35,159 bases of DNA from Treponema denticola (GTDB taxonomy: Bacteria > Spirochaetota > Spirochaetia > Treponematales > Breznakiellaceae). Below are positions 1,214 through 20,330 of the stretch, one piece after another. The notes beneath the pieces were generated by a model, which saw only the letters and a list, made by a program, of their open reading frames with translations, did not search any database and had not been told where the DNA came from. Every line of letters begins with the position of its first letter. The first letter of the stretch is position 1. Made by a program: the position numbers and the translations under genes. The stretch is taken from positions 1-35,159 of the forward strand of contig DYPP01000002.1 of assembly GCA_020719845.1 (NCBI GenBank), written 5' to 3'.

Positions 1214-2578
1214 TTGAACGCGAGGTCTGTGTTGCGGAACAAGCATCGATTTGAGAGTTCAGACGAGATTTTTAAGTGGCTTTCGGGATTCATCAATTTT
1301 GAACGGGATCCTTCCGCCCGGGACTACCGGCTGGACCGGATGCAACGGTTGGCCCAGATCGCGGGACATCCGGAAGGTGCTCTGCGCGCCGTGCACGTGG
1401 CGGGCTCCAAGGGCAAGGGTTCGGTCACTACCATGGTGGCTTCCATTTTGTCCGAGGCCGGACTCAGGACCGCGCGCTACCTGTCGCCCCACGTGACCGA
1501 ATACCGGGAGCGGATTTGCCTGAACGCGCGCTTCTTCGACGAAGGCGTCTACACCGCCGCCGGCAGCGCGTTGCGGGATATCGTCGACCGCTACGGCGCC
1601 GAAGCGGCGGAGCAGGGGGAACCGACTTTCTTTGAGCTGTTGACCCTGTTCTATTTCCTCTGCGCCCAGGAAGCTTCCTGCGCGGCGGGAGCGATCGAAA
1701 CCGGACTGGGCGGCCGACTGGACGCGACCAACATCATCACCCCGGCGGTATCGGTCATCACCCCGATAGAACGGGAACATATCGAATACCTGGGCACCAC
1801 GATCTCGGCTATTGCGGGTGAAAAAGCGGGGATCATCAAAGCCCTGCGGCCGGTGGTGCTGGCCCAGCAGCCGCCGGACGCCCTGGCGGTTTTCCGCTCC
1901 GCCGCCGACCGCGCCGGGAGCCCCCTGCTCTACCTGCCGGAAGAAGCCCGCCTGACCGACCTCCGCACCGATACGACCGGAACGCGCTTCCGCCTTTCCT
2001 TCCGGAGCGCCGGCGCCTTGGCCGCGCCGCGGGAAGTGCGGCTGACCCAGATTGGGGAGATTCAGGCTTACAACGCGGCCTTGGCCGCTTTAGCCGTACG
2101 TACCGCTTTTCCCGAAGTGGACGAACCAGCGATCCTGGGAGGGCTGGAAAAAACCGTCCTTCCCGCCCGCTTTGAGCGTATTCTGGATCAGCCGCCGCTG
2201 ATCATCGACGGCGCGCATACTCCCCGGAGCGTCGCTCTGACGGTGGGGACCTTCGTGTCCCTCTACGGAGACGGGGGAATCTTGCTGTTCGCCTGCGCCG
2301 CGGACAAGAACGCCCGGGAAATGGCCCGCCTCCTGGTGCCCCATTTTTCCCGCATCCTGGTCACGACTCCGGGCTCTTTCAAGAAAAGCGATCTGGACGG
2401 CGTCCATCAGGCTTTTCTCGACCACCTGAGGGCGGACAAACCGGAACTGGCGCGCATCGAAAATACCCAGGAAGCGGTGGCCGCCGCGGTCCAGGCGGGT
2501 CGTCAAGGGTATCTGCCGATTCTGTGCGTCGGCTCCTTCTACCTGGCGGCCATCGCCCGGCGACAACTCCAATCTTGA
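1214..2578 (+). CDS. folC: Folylpolyglutamate / dihydrofolate synthase
   Basis: Mur-ligase-family enzyme that adds glutamate to folates and, in bifunctional members, joins dihydropteroate to glutamate. Counting from the TTG at 1214, the ATP-binding P-loop GSKGKGS is at residues 64-70. The loop ETGLGGRLDATN, the HIEYLG segment and GEKAGIIK follow as in FolC. The C-terminal domain has DGAHTP where most members have DGAHNP. At 454 residues the length is normal. The start is uncertain: TTG 1214, GTG 1229 and TTG 1232 are all in frame, and the only Shine-Dalgarno-like sequence (cgagg, 1221-1225) would best suit 1229 or 1232. The TGA stop (2576-2578) is also the first three bases of repeat element A copy 1. 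Bifunctionality is inferred; no folP is nearby. Confidence 0.92.
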   Translation: MNARSVLRNKHRFESSDEIFKWLSGFINFERDPSARDYRLDRMQRLAQIAGHPEGALRAVHVAGSKGKGSVTTMVASILSEAGLRTARYLSPHVTEYRERICLNARFFDEGVYTAAGSALRDIVDRYGAEAAEQGEPTFFELLTLFYFLCAQEASCAAGAIETGLGGRLDATNIITPAVSVITPIEREHIEYLGTTISAIAGEKAGIIKALRPVVLAQQPPDALAVFRSAADRAGSPLLYLPEEARLTDLRTDTTGTRFRLSFRSAGALAAPREVRLTQIGEIQAYNAALAALAVRTAFPEVDEPAILGGLEKTVLPARFERILDQPPLIIDGAHTPRSVALTVGTFVSLYGDGGILLFACAADKNAREMARLLVPHFSRILVTTPGSFKKSDLDGVHQAFLDHLRADKPELARIENTQEAVAAAVQAGRQGYLPILCVGSFYLAAIARRQLQS

Positions 2579-2686
2579 GTCCGGTCCAAAAAACGGTTGT
2601 TTTTAGACCGGACTTAAGCAATTCCTTACAGGAATTGCGTTTTAAGCGGAACAACCCTAAAAACTGAAGTTTTTAGGGTTGACTCA
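2576..2686. repeat. Intergenic repeat element A, copy 1 (111 bp)
   Basis: A 111-bp element with ends TGAGTC...GACTCA. It holds three hairpins: 2579-2617 (GTCCGGTC against GACCGGAC plus an A/T stem), 2618-2638 (GCAATTCCT against AGGAATTGC), and 2653-2682 (AACCCTAAAAAC against GTTTTTAGGGTT). It matches copy 2 at 19283-19393 over its whole length with 8 substitutions and no gaps. It fills the entire space between the convergent folC and pseudouridine synthase genes. The TGA stop codons of both genes are formed by its two ends. The third hairpin could also act as a bidirectional terminator. Confidence 0.8.
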
Positions 2687-3409
2687 TCCTTCTACCGAAA
2701 ACCGATAGGGAACGTCGCTGTCCGGGTCTCTAAAATAAAGCGACTGCGCCAATAAGGCCAGGCCTTCTCCCGGCCTTACCTCGCCCCCGTACAGCGTATC
2801 GCCGATGATGGGCAGCCCCAGCCAAGCCAGGTGACAGCGGATCTGATGCCGGAAGCCCCTGGTCAGGCGCACGACCAGCCGCAGGCTCAGGTCTTTCTCT
2901 TCGCCCCATTCCCGCACTTCCGTTCGGTATCCCAGCCCCCGATCGTCGCCAAACCCCGGGGTCCGGCCCTCATCGCCGCCGCTGACCGGCCGGACGGCGC
3001 GGCGACCGGGACCAAAGGGGCGGAAGGCGCTTTCAACCACCAGGGGAATTCCGGACCAGGACGGCGGCGGGGGAAACCCCAGCCGGCCGGCGGTTATCTC
3101 CAGCCGGGTACAGCGGGCGACGTAATCCTTGATGAGCGTGCCCGCTTCCTGCTGGCGATGCAACTGGTCAAAAGCGGCTTGGGTACGGGCCACCAGAACC
3201 AAACCCGCGGTTTCCCCGTCCAGACGATGCACCAGCCCGCCTTCGATCGCCTTGCGCCCCCGAACCAGCAGGGTTTCCGGAAACTTGTCGGCGCACCACG
3301 CCAGCAGCGTCCCTTCCTCATTTGCCTTCAGGGGGGCGGAATGCATGCCCGCCGGCTTGTACAGCACCAGAAATGCCGCAGTTTCGGCGATGACCCGGGG
3401 TTCCTTCAT
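2684..3409 (-). CDS. RluA-family pseudouridine synthase, short form
   Basis: A 241-residue pseudouridine synthase of the RluA family without an S4 RNA-binding domain. The active-site motif HRLDGETAG (residues 61-69, catalytic Asp64) replaces the usual HRLDxxTSG, with Ala for Ser. The C-terminal family motif GFRHQIRCHLAWLGLPIIGD is intact. The ATG at 3409 overlaps the stop of the upstream rluD gene in an ATGA arrangement, which fixes the start; longer open frame upstream is antisense noise within rluD. Between the motifs lies an insert rich in Gly, Pro and Arg (about residues 125-180), longer than usual. The substrate (rRNA or tRNA site) cannot be told from sequence. It is the last gene of the PilZ-led operon. 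Confidence 0.85.
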   Translation of the reverse strand: MKEPRVIAETAAFLVLYKPAGMHSAPLKANEEGTLLAWCADKFPETLLVRGRKAIEGGLVHRLDGETAGLVLVARTQAAFDQLHRQQEAGTLIKDYVARCTRLEITAGRLGFPPPPSWSGIPLVVESAFRPFGPGRRAVRPVSGGDEGRTPGFGDDRGLGYRTEVREWGEEKDLSLRLVVRLTRGFRHQIRCHLAWLGLPIIGDTLYGGEVRPGEGLALLAQSLYFRDPDSDVPYRFSVEG

Positions 3410-4335
3410 CGGCTTTTTCCGAGGGACGCCAGCAGCGCCCGGAAACGCGGCGGCAGGGGCGCGGTAAAGCTGGTTTGCCCGGCGTGGCCGGGCAGACGGA
3501 TAGCCAGGCGCAGGGCGTGGAGCATCAGGGTAGCATCGGGAAAGCGGGGATCCTTGGTGCCGTACACCGGGTCGCCCAGAATCGGACAACCCAGGTGCCG
3601 CAGGTGTACCCGGAGCTGGTGCGTCCGGCCGGTTTTCAGCCGGAGCAGCAGCAGGGCGTAGCCATCCCAGGTGCGCAGCACCCGGTACAGGGTCAACGCC
3701 GTCTTGCCGCCGGAGGCGGAAACGGCAAAGCGCTTGCGGTCCCGCTTGTCCCGGACGATCAAGGTTTCGATCCTGCCCTCCGGCGCGGCGGGTGTGCCGC
3801 GCACGATGGCCAGATAGGTTTTGCGGGTACTCCGTTCCTTGAACTGGCCGGCCAGCCAGGCCAGCGCTTCTTCATCGTAGGCGGCGATGATGACCCCGGA
3901 GGTATCCTTGTCCAGCCGGTGCACGATCCCCGGCCGCAGTCCGTCCCCGGAACCTCCCCGCTTGAGGCGACGGTACAGGAGGGCGTTGGCCAGCGTGCCT
4001 GCGGCGTTCCCCGCGCCGGGGTGCACGACCATGCCCTGGGCTTTGTGGACCACCACGACCCGCTGATCTTCGTAAATAATATCCAGGGGCAGGTCCTGGG
4101 GCAGCAGGTCGGAGGGCTCCGGATCCTGCCAGGTCAGCTCCAGCCGGTCCCCGGGAAAGAGGGGTCGGGATATTTTAACCGCCTTGCCGTTCACCCGGGC
4201 GGACAAAGCCCGGGTCTTGACCTGGGAACGGGAAAGCAGCTTGAGGAATTCCGCCACGTAGCGGTCCAGCCGCCAGCCGCCGGCGGCTACCTCCTGACCG
4301 GCTTCGTCGCCGACTACGCCGGAGTACCCGGGCAT
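3406..4335 (-). CDS. rluD: RluD-like rRNA pseudouridine synthase
   Basis: A 309-residue RluA/RluD-type enzyme with an N-terminal S4 RNA-binding domain (about residues 20-70). The catalytic domain has HRLDKDTSG at residues 139-147 (catalytic Asp142) and the C-terminal KTGRTHQLRVHLRHLGCPIL motif. The S4 domain and overall size match RluD, which modifies helix 69 of 23S rRNA in E. coli, but RluC-type specificity is possible. The start has GGAGC eight bases upstream and lies two bases after the stop of the preceding membrane-protein gene. The stop overlaps the next pseudouridine synthase by four bases, so the two synthases are probably translationally coupled. Confidence 0.88.
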   Translation of the reverse strand: MPGYSGVVGDEAGQEVAAGGWRLDRYVAEFLKLLSRSQVKTRALSARVNGKAVKISRPLFPGDRLELTWQDPEPSDLLPQDLPLDIIYEDQRVVVVHKAQGMVVHPGAGNAAGTLANALLYRRLKRGGSGDGLRPGIVHRLDKDTSGVIIAAYDEEALAWLAGQFKERSTRKTYLAIVRGTPAAPEGRIETLIVRDKRDRKRFAVSASGGKTALTLYRVLRTWDGYALLLLRLKTGRTHQLRVHLRHLGCPILGDPVYGTKDPRFPDATLMLHALRLAIRLPGHAGQTSFTAPLPPRFRALLASLGKSR

Positions 4336-18189: not shown

Positions 18190-19167
18190 TTATTTGACGG
18201 CGCCTTTTTCCTTGTAGTACTTCAGCGCGCCGGGATGGAAGTCCACCGAAGCGCCCTGCACGCCGGCTTCAAGGGACAGTTCCTTGCCCTTGGCGTGGGC
18301 CTGGGCCAGGTCGGCCTGCTTCTCAAAAAGCGCCTTGGTCAGGGAATAGGCGACGGCGTCGGCCATATCCTTGCGGACGATGAGCGTTGCCTTGACCGCC
18401 AGCGCGGGGACGACGGCGGACACGCCGGTATAGGTCCCGGAAGCGATGGGGAAGTCGGTATAGAATTTATACTTGGACTTCAGCGCCGAGGCCTGCGTAG
18501 CGTCGATGCCGACCAACACGATGGGCGCCAGGGCGGAAATTTCCTGGATGGCCGGGTTGGGAACGCCGCCGGTGACGAAGAACGCGTCCAGCTGCTTGTC
18601 CTGCAGGCCCGAGGCGGACTCCTTGAAGGAAAGGTGGCTGGCCTTGACGTCGTCGAAGCTCATGCCGTAGGCCTCCAGGATCTGCTTGGCGTTGGCTTCC
18701 ACGCCCGAACCGGCGTCGCCCACGGAAACGCGCTTGCCCCGCAGATCGGCGACGGTCTTGATGCCCGCAGCGGGGCTGGCCACGATCTGGACCACTTCGG
18801 GGTACAGGGTGGCGATGGTGCGGAAGGTTTCGACCTTTTCGCCGTTGAACAGCTCGATGCCCTTGTAGGCGTAATCCATGACGTCGTTCTGCACGATGGC
18901 CAGATCCGCCTCGCCCTTGCCGACCAAGCGGATATTTTCTTTGGACGCCCCCGTGGACTGGGCGGTGACGTTCATTTTTTCGATATTTTTGTTCCAGATC
19001 TGGGCCATGGCGCCGCCGAAGGGGTAGTAGGTTCCCGCAGTGCCGCCGGTGGCCAGGATGAGGTTGGTGGGCTGGGCGGCCTGCTTTTGGCAAGAAACGA
19101 CCAGTACCGCCATGCCCAGCATCGCCAGGATGAAGGCATTTCGATACGACAATTTCAATCCTTTCAT
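18190..19167 (-). CDS. TAXI-family TRAP transporter solute-binding lipoprotein
   Basis: A 325-residue TAXI-type substrate-binding protein. The ATG at 19167 is chosen over an upstream start (19215) because a strong AGGAGGAAC precedes it and the signal peptide then begins MKGLKLSYRN. A lipobox VVSC (lipid-modified Cys26) anchors it to the membrane. The opening LILATGGTAGTYYPFGGAMA, followed by STGASKENIRLVGKGEADLA and VQNDVMDYAYKG, is the TAXI signature. It captures the substrate outside the cytoplasmic membrane and hands it to the fused permease. It is the first gene of the operon, with a promoter and a pair of direct repeats upstream. Confidence 0.93.
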   Translation of the reverse strand: MKGLKLSYRNAFILAMLGMAVLVVSCQKQAAQPTNLILATGGTAGTYYPFGGAMAQIWNKNIEKMNVTAQSTGASKENIRLVGKGEADLAIVQNDVMDYAYKGIELFNGEKVETFRTIATLYPEVVQIVASPAAGIKTVADLRGKRVSVGDAGSGVEANAKQILEAYGMSFDDVKASHLSFKESASGLQDKQLDAFFVTGGVPNPAIQEISALAPIVLVGIDATQASALKSKYKFYTDFPIASGTYTGVSAVVPALAVKATLIVRKDMADAVAYSLTKALFEKQADLAQAHAKGKELSLEAGVQGASVDFHPGALKYYKEKGAVK

Positions 19168-19192
19168 GAGTTCCTCCTTCAGGAATCGGAGC

Positions 19193-19222
19193 ATGGTACC
19201 ATGGTTCCGGGGCATTTTTCAA
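19193..19222 (-). promoter_or_regulatory. Candidate promoter of the TRAP operon
   Basis: On the minus strand, TTGAAA (19217-19222) and TACCAT (19193-19198) are 18 bp apart. A TG one base before the -10 gives an extended -10 element. The predicted transcription start is near 19186, ahead of the strong ribosome binding site and the ATG at 19167. Confidence 0.45.
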
Positions 19223-19282: not shown

Positions 19283-19393
19283 TGAGTCGGGTCTAAAAAC
19301 CGGTTGTTTTTAGACTGGACTTAAGCAATTCCTTACAGGAATTGCGTTTTAAGCGGAACAACTCAAAAAACTGAAGTTTTTGGAGTTGACTCA
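19283..19393. repeat. Intergenic repeat element A, copy 2 (111 bp)
   Basis: Second copy of the 111-bp element at 2576-2686, with the same ends TGAGTC...GACTCA, the same three hairpins and no gaps. The central hairpin (GCAATTCCT/AGGAATTGC) is unchanged. In the third hairpin one C-G pair has become T-A through changes on both arms. Here the element lies between the divergent TRAP operon and metA, 25 bp before the metA start, so it would be part of a long metA leader if transcription starts upstream. A TA dinucleotide flanks each end, as after insertion at a TA target; copy 1 lacks this. Confidence 0.8.
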
Positions 19394-19418: not shown

Positions 19419-20330
19419 ATGCCCATCAAAATACCCGCTGCCCTACCCGCCTACGAAGCGCTCAAGCAGGAAAACGTATTCGTCATGACCGAAGCCCGGG
19501 CGGAACACCAGGACATCCGGCCGCTGAAATTCGCCATCGTCAACCTGATGCCCACCACGGTGGATACGGAACTGCAGTTGCTGCGCCTGCTGGGCAATAC
19601 CCCCATCCAGATCAACGTCACTTTCTTGCGCATGGGCAGCCATGAATCCCGCAACGCCCCCCCGGGCCACCTGGACCGCTTCTACGTGACCTATGAAGAA
19701 GTGATGCACGAGCGCTTCGACGGACTGATCATCACCGGCGCGCCGGTGGAGACCCTGGCCTTTGAGGAAGTGGATTACTGGGACGAACTGGTGAGCGTCC
19801 TGGATTTTGCCGGGTCCCGGGTCTGGTCGACGCTGCATATCTGCTGGGGCGCCCAGGCCGGCCTGTACCGGCGCTACGGCATCCCCAAAAAACCCCTGGC
19901 CGCCAAACTATCCGGCGTCTACCCCCACGCGGTCAACGAACGGCTGAATCCCCTCTTCCGGGGTTTCGACGACCAATTCCTGGCGCCCCAGTCCCGGTTC
20001 ACGGAAAGCGACCGGGAAGCCATCGCCGCCCACCCCTCGCTGTCCATCGACTCCGAGTCGCCGGACTCCGGCGTGTTCATCACCACCGCCCGGGACAACC
20101 GGGAAATTTACGTCAGCGGCCACCTGGAATACGACCCGCTGACGCTGGACCGGGAATACCGCCGGGACCTGGCCAGAGGCTTGCCCGCCGCGGTGCCGGT
20201 CAACTATTACGACCGGGACGACCCCGCCCGGCGGCCGATCGTGCGCTGGCGGGCGCACGCCCATCTTTTCTTTTCCAACTGGGTCAACTACGTCTATCAG
20301 GAAACGCCCTACGACCTGGAGACGCTGTAG
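19419..20330 (+). CDS. metA: Homoserine O-acetyltransferase, MetA type
   Basis: A 303-residue MetA-family acyltransferase in the first step of methionine synthesis. The catalytic cysteine is in HICWGAQAG (Cys142), with the His/Glu partners in SGHLEYD near residue 235. In this family the residue after TGAPV/L decides the acyl donor: Gly in succinyl-CoA users such as E. coli, Glu111 in acetyl-CoA users. Here it is Glu111 (ITGAPVETLAFEEVDYW), so O-acetylhomoserine is the expected product despite the common 'succinyltransferase' label. AGGAG lies seven bases before the ATG. Its 3' end is 13 bp from the convergent hrpB. No other methionine gene is in the window. Confidence 0.92.
   Translation: MPIKIPAALPAYEALKQENVFVMTEARAEHQDIRPLKFAIVNLMPTTVDTELQLLRLLGNTPIQINVTFLRMGSHESRNAPPGHLDRFYVTYEEVMHERFDGLIITGAPVETLAFEEVDYWDELVSVLDFAGSRVWSTLHICWGAQAGLYRRYGIPKKPLAAKLSGVYPHAVNERLNPLFRGFDDQFLAPQSRFTESDREAIAAHPSLSIDSESPDSGVFITTARDNREIYVSGHLEYDPLTLDREYRRDLARGLPAAVPVNYYDRDDPARRPIVRWRAHAHLFFSNWVNYVYQETPYDLETL

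Follow-up and report, generated by a model that had tools for sequence, protein, structure and literature searches.

A 111-bp repeat with three hairpins occurs twice in the 35,159-nt stretch of Treponema denticola DNA that we analyzed (hereafter the window; assembly GCA_020719845.1, contig DYPP01000002.1), which raises the questions of what this repeat is, what moved it, and why its hairpins have persisted. The first-pass annotation had called it a non-autonomous mobile or REP-like element. The first half of that description stands, and the likeness to REP elements is confined to a palindromic appearance. We conclude, with a probability of roughly 0.82, that the element is an IS-derived MITE whose ends are recognized by a DDE transposase of the IS5 family, encoded elsewhere and acting in trans. 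The mobile reading draws on dispersed copies, defined ends, 4-bp duplications, and insertion sequences with matching terminal repeats in related genomes. The interest of the family lies in its distinctive structure, in which the palindromic ends of a probable IS-derived MITE flank a covarying central hairpin.

Both copies in the window are 111 nt long, align without gaps, and differ at the 8 positions (7, 12, 18, 34, 81, 83, 100, and 102) that the earlier annotation had counted. Its TGAGTC/GACTCA ends are present in both, and the 18-bp terminal repeat of copy 2 is matched at 14 of 18 positions. The flanks of the two copies are unrelated to each other, and the palindromic core has 4 matches in the window against 0.04 expected. 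Copy 1 sits between convergent folC-like and RluA-family genes and supplies the TGA stop of both, and copy 2 occupies the gap between a divergent TAXI-family TRAP solute-binding gene and metA (Table 1). Gene borders are touched elsewhere as well: at L172:4122-4988, hairpin 3 of an element forms the 3' end of a PD-(D/E)XK-like ORF, and on the right flanks at L014, L017, and L022, several copies of the window's own genome end right at an AGGA that is presumed to be the ribosome-binding site of the following gene. The ends of all copies in that genome, in the window at 2576-2581 and 2681-2686, also carry GANTC methylation-type sites (GAGTC/GACTC).

Table 1. Positions of the two element copies, their hairpins, and the neighboring genes in the window
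Feature	Position	Strand	Remarks
folC-like gene	1214-2578	+	TGA stop codon coincides with the first 3 bp of copy 1
Copy 1, three-hairpin element	2576-2686	+	Orientation H1 to H3
Copy 1, hairpin 1	2576-2593 (5' arm), 2599-2616 (3' arm)	+	5' arm is the left terminal repeat
Copy 1, central hairpin 2	2618-2638	+	Arms 2618-2626 and 2630-2638
Copy 1, hairpin 3	2652-2681	+	Arms 2652-2664 and 2669-2681; right terminal repeat 2669-2686
RluA-family pseudouridine synthase gene	2684-3589	-	Stop codon coincides with the last 3 bp of copy 1
TAXI-family TRAP transporter solute-binding gene	18190-19215	-	Divergent left neighbor of copy 2
Copy 2, three-hairpin element	19283-19393	+	
Copy 2, hairpin 1	19283-19323	+	Arms 19283-19300 and 19306-19323; left terminal repeat 19283-19300
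Copy 2, central hairpin 2	19325-19345	+	Identical to copy 1
Copy 2, hairpin 3	19359-19388	+	Arms 19359-19371 and 19376-19388; right terminal repeat 19376-19393
metA homoserine O-acyltransferase gene	19419-20330	+	Start 25 bp past copy 2

RNA folding predicts the three proposed hairpins on both strands (z-scores of -6.2 to -8.7). Both terminal repeats are doubled so that they form local palindromes, giving the layout TIR>-<TIR, central hairpin, TIR>-<TIR. The central hairpin, described earlier as invariant, is 98% paired across 18 genomic copies. Relatives keep the order H1-H2-H3 with different sequences and with ends GGGAACCTCTAAAAAC...GTTTTTAGAGGTTCCC; a TCTAAAAAC core in both outer hairpins is common to them and to the window's own genome. 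The central hairpin of relatives is very different in sequence (for example, AGAAAATTGC...GCAATTTTCT or GTTGTAAATCGC...GCGATTTACAAC). Hairpin-2 stems have a median length of 12 bp versus 4.9 in shuffles. In the GTTTCTCGCCC... group the automatic stem finder reported just a 5-bp perfect stem, because the hairpin is interrupted there.

The prediction of many copies in the genome was borne out, which disposes of the alternative that just two copies exist through one segmental duplication. A blast search of the 3.3-Mb genome, a draft of 252 contigs, many of which end within a copy, returned 54 match rows at about 40 distinct places, comprising about 18 complete 111-bp copies and roughly 20 truncated or shortened ones. 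Ends of the TGAGTCnnnTCTAAAAAC type gave 54 matches per strand versus 5-6 for a backward control (at most 2 mismatches). Across 84,980 species genomes, the matches listed for the core CTAAAAACTGAAGTTTTTAG were all in spirochaetes, mostly Treponema and uncultured Spirochaetales. The pattern CTAAAAACN{3,9}GTTTTTAG, counted in 393 genomes of the phylum, reached 40 or more copies per genome inside the order and 1-2 elsewhere, which is the level of the backward control; the element is thus not multicopy outside the order in this sample. A diverged three-hairpin element occurs in many genomes of the order (Treponema and relatives), the relatives searched all belonging to genera other than that of the window. 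IMG/VR viral contigs gave no exact match, and a plasmid collection gave no match.

At 111 bp, without a gene of its own and bounded by terminal inverted repeats, the element has the makeup of a MITE, and the flanks of its copies record movement. Exact 4-bp flanking repeats accompany 10 of 27 copies in the genome, where 0.77 were expected and 0 of 2000 permutations reached the observed count; for copies elsewhere the figure is 9 of 20, against 1.21 expected. This excess, far above chance, indicates that the copies moved as units with defined ends. Duplications of 6-9 bp gave no signal at the copy flanks, and neither copy in the window retains an exact target duplication; nor did a filled/empty-site pair turn up among the relatives, all from other genera. 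Chimeras of 40-42 bp, consisting of the left half of H1 and the right half of H3, are also flanked by 4-bp repeats; they are no proof that short units move, because a full-length copy that lost its interior once inserted would still be flanked by the duplication.

The first-pass annotation had suggested looking for an intact transposase with the same terminal repeats; a likely partner was found in other genomes of the order and none in the window's own. Inspection of PF01609 loci in relatives revealed IS5-family insertion sequences of about 1.2 kb, in G028, G019, G179, and others, with a 16-bp terminal repeat GGGCACCTCTAAAAAC and 4-bp duplications as in the palindromic element. The ends in these three genomes read GGGAACCTCTAAAAAC, GGGCATCTCTAAAAAC, or GGGCACCTCTAAAAAC. 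The closed genome G028 carries a 1246-bp IS three times (duplications TAAA, ATAT, and ATAT), and G019 carries a 1237-bp IS (duplication TAAT). The closed genome G179 has a 1210-bp IS with seven transposase copies, and all four loci read have perfect TIRs GGGCACCTCTAAAAAC, two with duplications (AATA and TGTA) and two without. The G028 and G019 proteins score 293 and 284 bits against the IS5-family model NF033581 (cut-off of 140) and match PF01609 too. G019 carries both the IS and the three-hairpin element, which lies there between TAGT duplications and whose 16-bp left end is identical to that of the IS. The ends of the IS are not palindromic, and hence the palindromes are a feature of the small element alone.

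In the window's own genome (the 252-contig draft) we found 0 matches to PF01609 and no homologue of the G028 transposase. Its ends, TGAGTC...TCTAAAAAC, are a derived version that has only TCTAAAAAC (nine bases) in common with the IS ends, and with no transposase found there, the window's elements look orphaned. When 294 genomes of the order were searched by pattern, TGAGTC ends were numerous in this genome only, with one in G036; the single matches in nine other genomes look like chance. A TGAGTC-ended IS was rejected as a candidate. Palindromes and IS frequently fail to co-occur: PF01609 has no match in G042, a genome with 40 palindromes, and G028, with its three IS copies, has no strict-pattern palindromes. 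This pattern would fit an IS that has been lost or is supplied from outside. Two further candidates were discarded. No long, IS-sized element bounded by palindromes was convincing in 114 loci, and half-elements of the window's own genome do not serve as ends of an autonomous element, their interiors being mutually unrelated.

We infer from these data that an IS5-type transposase moved the elements and that the TGAGTC-ended branch used a diverged IS5-type version, since lost from its own genome; the link to the window's branch comes from the architecture and the duplication length, both of which are shared, and from the homology between elements. The outer 16-18 bp would serve as terminal inverted repeats bound by an IS5-family DDE transposase acting in trans, which would cut out or copy the element and insert it at a staggered target site, thereby duplicating 4 bp. 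Transposition of the IS200/IS605 kind proceeds without target-site duplication and without DDE-type ends. The exact 4-bp target duplications, and the terminal inverted repeats that the element has in common with a DDE IS, therefore indicate a DDE transposase and not the RAYT tyrosine transposase (IS200/IS605-like) of REP elements, and movement by a RAYT is very improbable even though small palindromic extragenic doublets are what REPINs look like (PMC3116915). Still harder to credit is a PD-(D/E)XK (Rpn-like, TIGR01784) putative transposase as the autonomous partner. That candidate arose from a 288-aa ORF at L172, with a weak TIGR01784 match, between inverted ends 1021 bp apart. The right-hand hairpin at L172 is a solo insertion flanked by a separate TAAA duplication, and a screen of 30 TIGR01784 loci, run without a positive control, found no palindrome; we rejected the candidate on these grounds, and the window's own genome has one sub-threshold TIGR01784 fragment only.

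The first-pass annotation had also argued for selection on structure from one C-G to T-A change on both arms of the third hairpin. That change is real (pair 81-102), but C-G is found in copy 1 alone among 18 copies, and the double change is therefore one event. Over these 18 copies, the paired fraction of cells is 96.4%. Both-side changes number 16 versus 7.5 in shuffles and are found in the local hairpins only; two subfamily differences account for most of this covariation. End-to-end pairing of the two terminal repeats shows no covariation in the 18 copies and was rejected as a conserved structure. In rumen treponemes, 97.5% of hairpin-2 cells are paired, both-side changes affect 6 of 12 pairs, and pair 6-32 occurs as all four Watson-Crick types, with 28 both-side-changed cells (versus 6.6) and a covariation score of 0.427 (versus 0.106 shuffled). 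Counts of this kind are inflated by relatedness, but slid controls are nonetheless far lower. A covariance model built from the 18 copies was matched over its full length, down to an E value of 4e-23, by most of 72 loci, the majority of them from other genera, and had no match in the four IS loci included. Most of the loci were picked for holding the core, so these E values show shared architecture and not independent discovery. Conservation of structure thus extends well beyond sequence identity, contrary to the alternative that the copies are merely similar in sequence, and selection on the element's structure appears likely, on the basis of covariation across the order more than of the single pair first cited.

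A DDE transposase does not need hairpins of this kind, and the family offers a test case for why mobile repeats retain elaborate hairpins that their transposase can do without. The hairpins would persist across the order most likely through an effect on the transcripts or DNA of neighboring genes that makes insertions tolerable. A rival reading would make the element a selected RNA device, spread by old transposition and kept because co-transcribed three-hairpin modules terminate, protect, or process mRNA at gene borders. The hairpin-2 covariation in rumen treponemes, the long hairpin-2 stem, and retention throughout the order would suit such a role, as would the orientation of the element between co-directional genes, which opposes transcription 23:8 (11:3 in the window's own genome, 12:5 in others), a bias of 23/31 that comes from automated gene calls pooled across genomes post hoc (own copies plus L085-L198) and is suggestive only. 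Copies nonetheless occur in gaps of every type, whether convergent, divergent, or co-directional, truncation or shortening to 40-42 bp is common among them, the covariation within the genome is mostly the two subfamily differences, and no Rfam family reaches its cut-off; we regard an RNA device as rather unlikely. Mutational upkeep, in which cruciforms or template switching copy arm onto arm and keep palindromes perfect while they drift, is somewhat more plausible but still tentative. It would explain why covariation is restricted to local hairpins and missing from long-range pairing of the terminal repeats, and the chimeric 40-42 bp forms point to frequent exchange between palindromes; set against it is the retention, with wholly different sequence across genera, of the internal hairpin 2, which has no known role in transposition. 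Both explanations are compatible with a MITE, so our confidence in each concerns the persistence of the hairpins. We would also entertain, as a speculation no stronger than the RNA device, a DDE-transposase counterpart of REPINs, in which IS5-type TIRs arranged as paired palindromes outlive the IS across an order and are kept as a three-hairpin transcript or single-stranded DNA useful at gene borders. Such elements might be parasites, by-products of mutation, or RNA modules that have been recruited, and the question is made testable by the covariation in the central hairpin and by closed genomes that contain dozens of copies.

Comparison with known systems places the element closest to the IS-derived MITEs reviewed in PMC10969869. 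Like these, it is shorter than 200 bp, gene-less, AT-rich, and intergenic, with TIRs shared with an IS, target duplications, and a stable predicted transcript fold. Their transcript is usually portrayed as one long stem-loop, whereas here palindromic terminal repeats enclose a further hairpin of changing sequence in a three-hairpin design that spans an order. The IS5-family IS (NF033581) of related genomes has identical 16-bp ends and 4-bp duplications but bears a transposase gene and lacks palindromic ends. The Correia/NEMIS elements of Neisseria are likewise intergenic, about 107-155 bp long, and bounded by TIRs, with a highly structured transcript (PMC2229807); they have TA ends and 24-bp TIRs, in contrast to the 4-bp duplications, 16-18 bp TIRs, and three separate hairpins found here. 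The CIR elements of Caulobacter and Brucella share conserved structure and a GANTC motif, with two independent stem-loops joined by a linker (PMC2229807). They lack terminal inverted repeats, whereas our element has three hairpins, TIRs, and target duplications, which sets it outside the CIRs, and its GANTC ends are numerous in just one genome, with a single occurrence in G036. REPINs are similarly non-autonomous, inverted, hairpin-forming doublets dispersed extragenically, but they are linked to RAYT tyrosine transposases, unlike an element for which target duplications argue for a DDE enzyme.

The three-hairpin family has no name or description in the Treponema repeat literature searched, which lay largely outside subscription journals, and a 2006 stem-loop survey of 40 genomes included T. 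pallidum as its sole spirochaete (PMC1590033). No Rfam family reached its gathering score in the window, the best permissive match (E value of 0.054) lying far below its cut-off. At L110:32-347, a longer element contains a nested sister family of palindromes whose ends differ (GAGCCTGTTCCAAAAC; GCTGTTCCAAAACTGAAGTTTTGGAACAGC), and similar ends occur in L201 and L227; the nested family suggests that several palindromic families are built alike.
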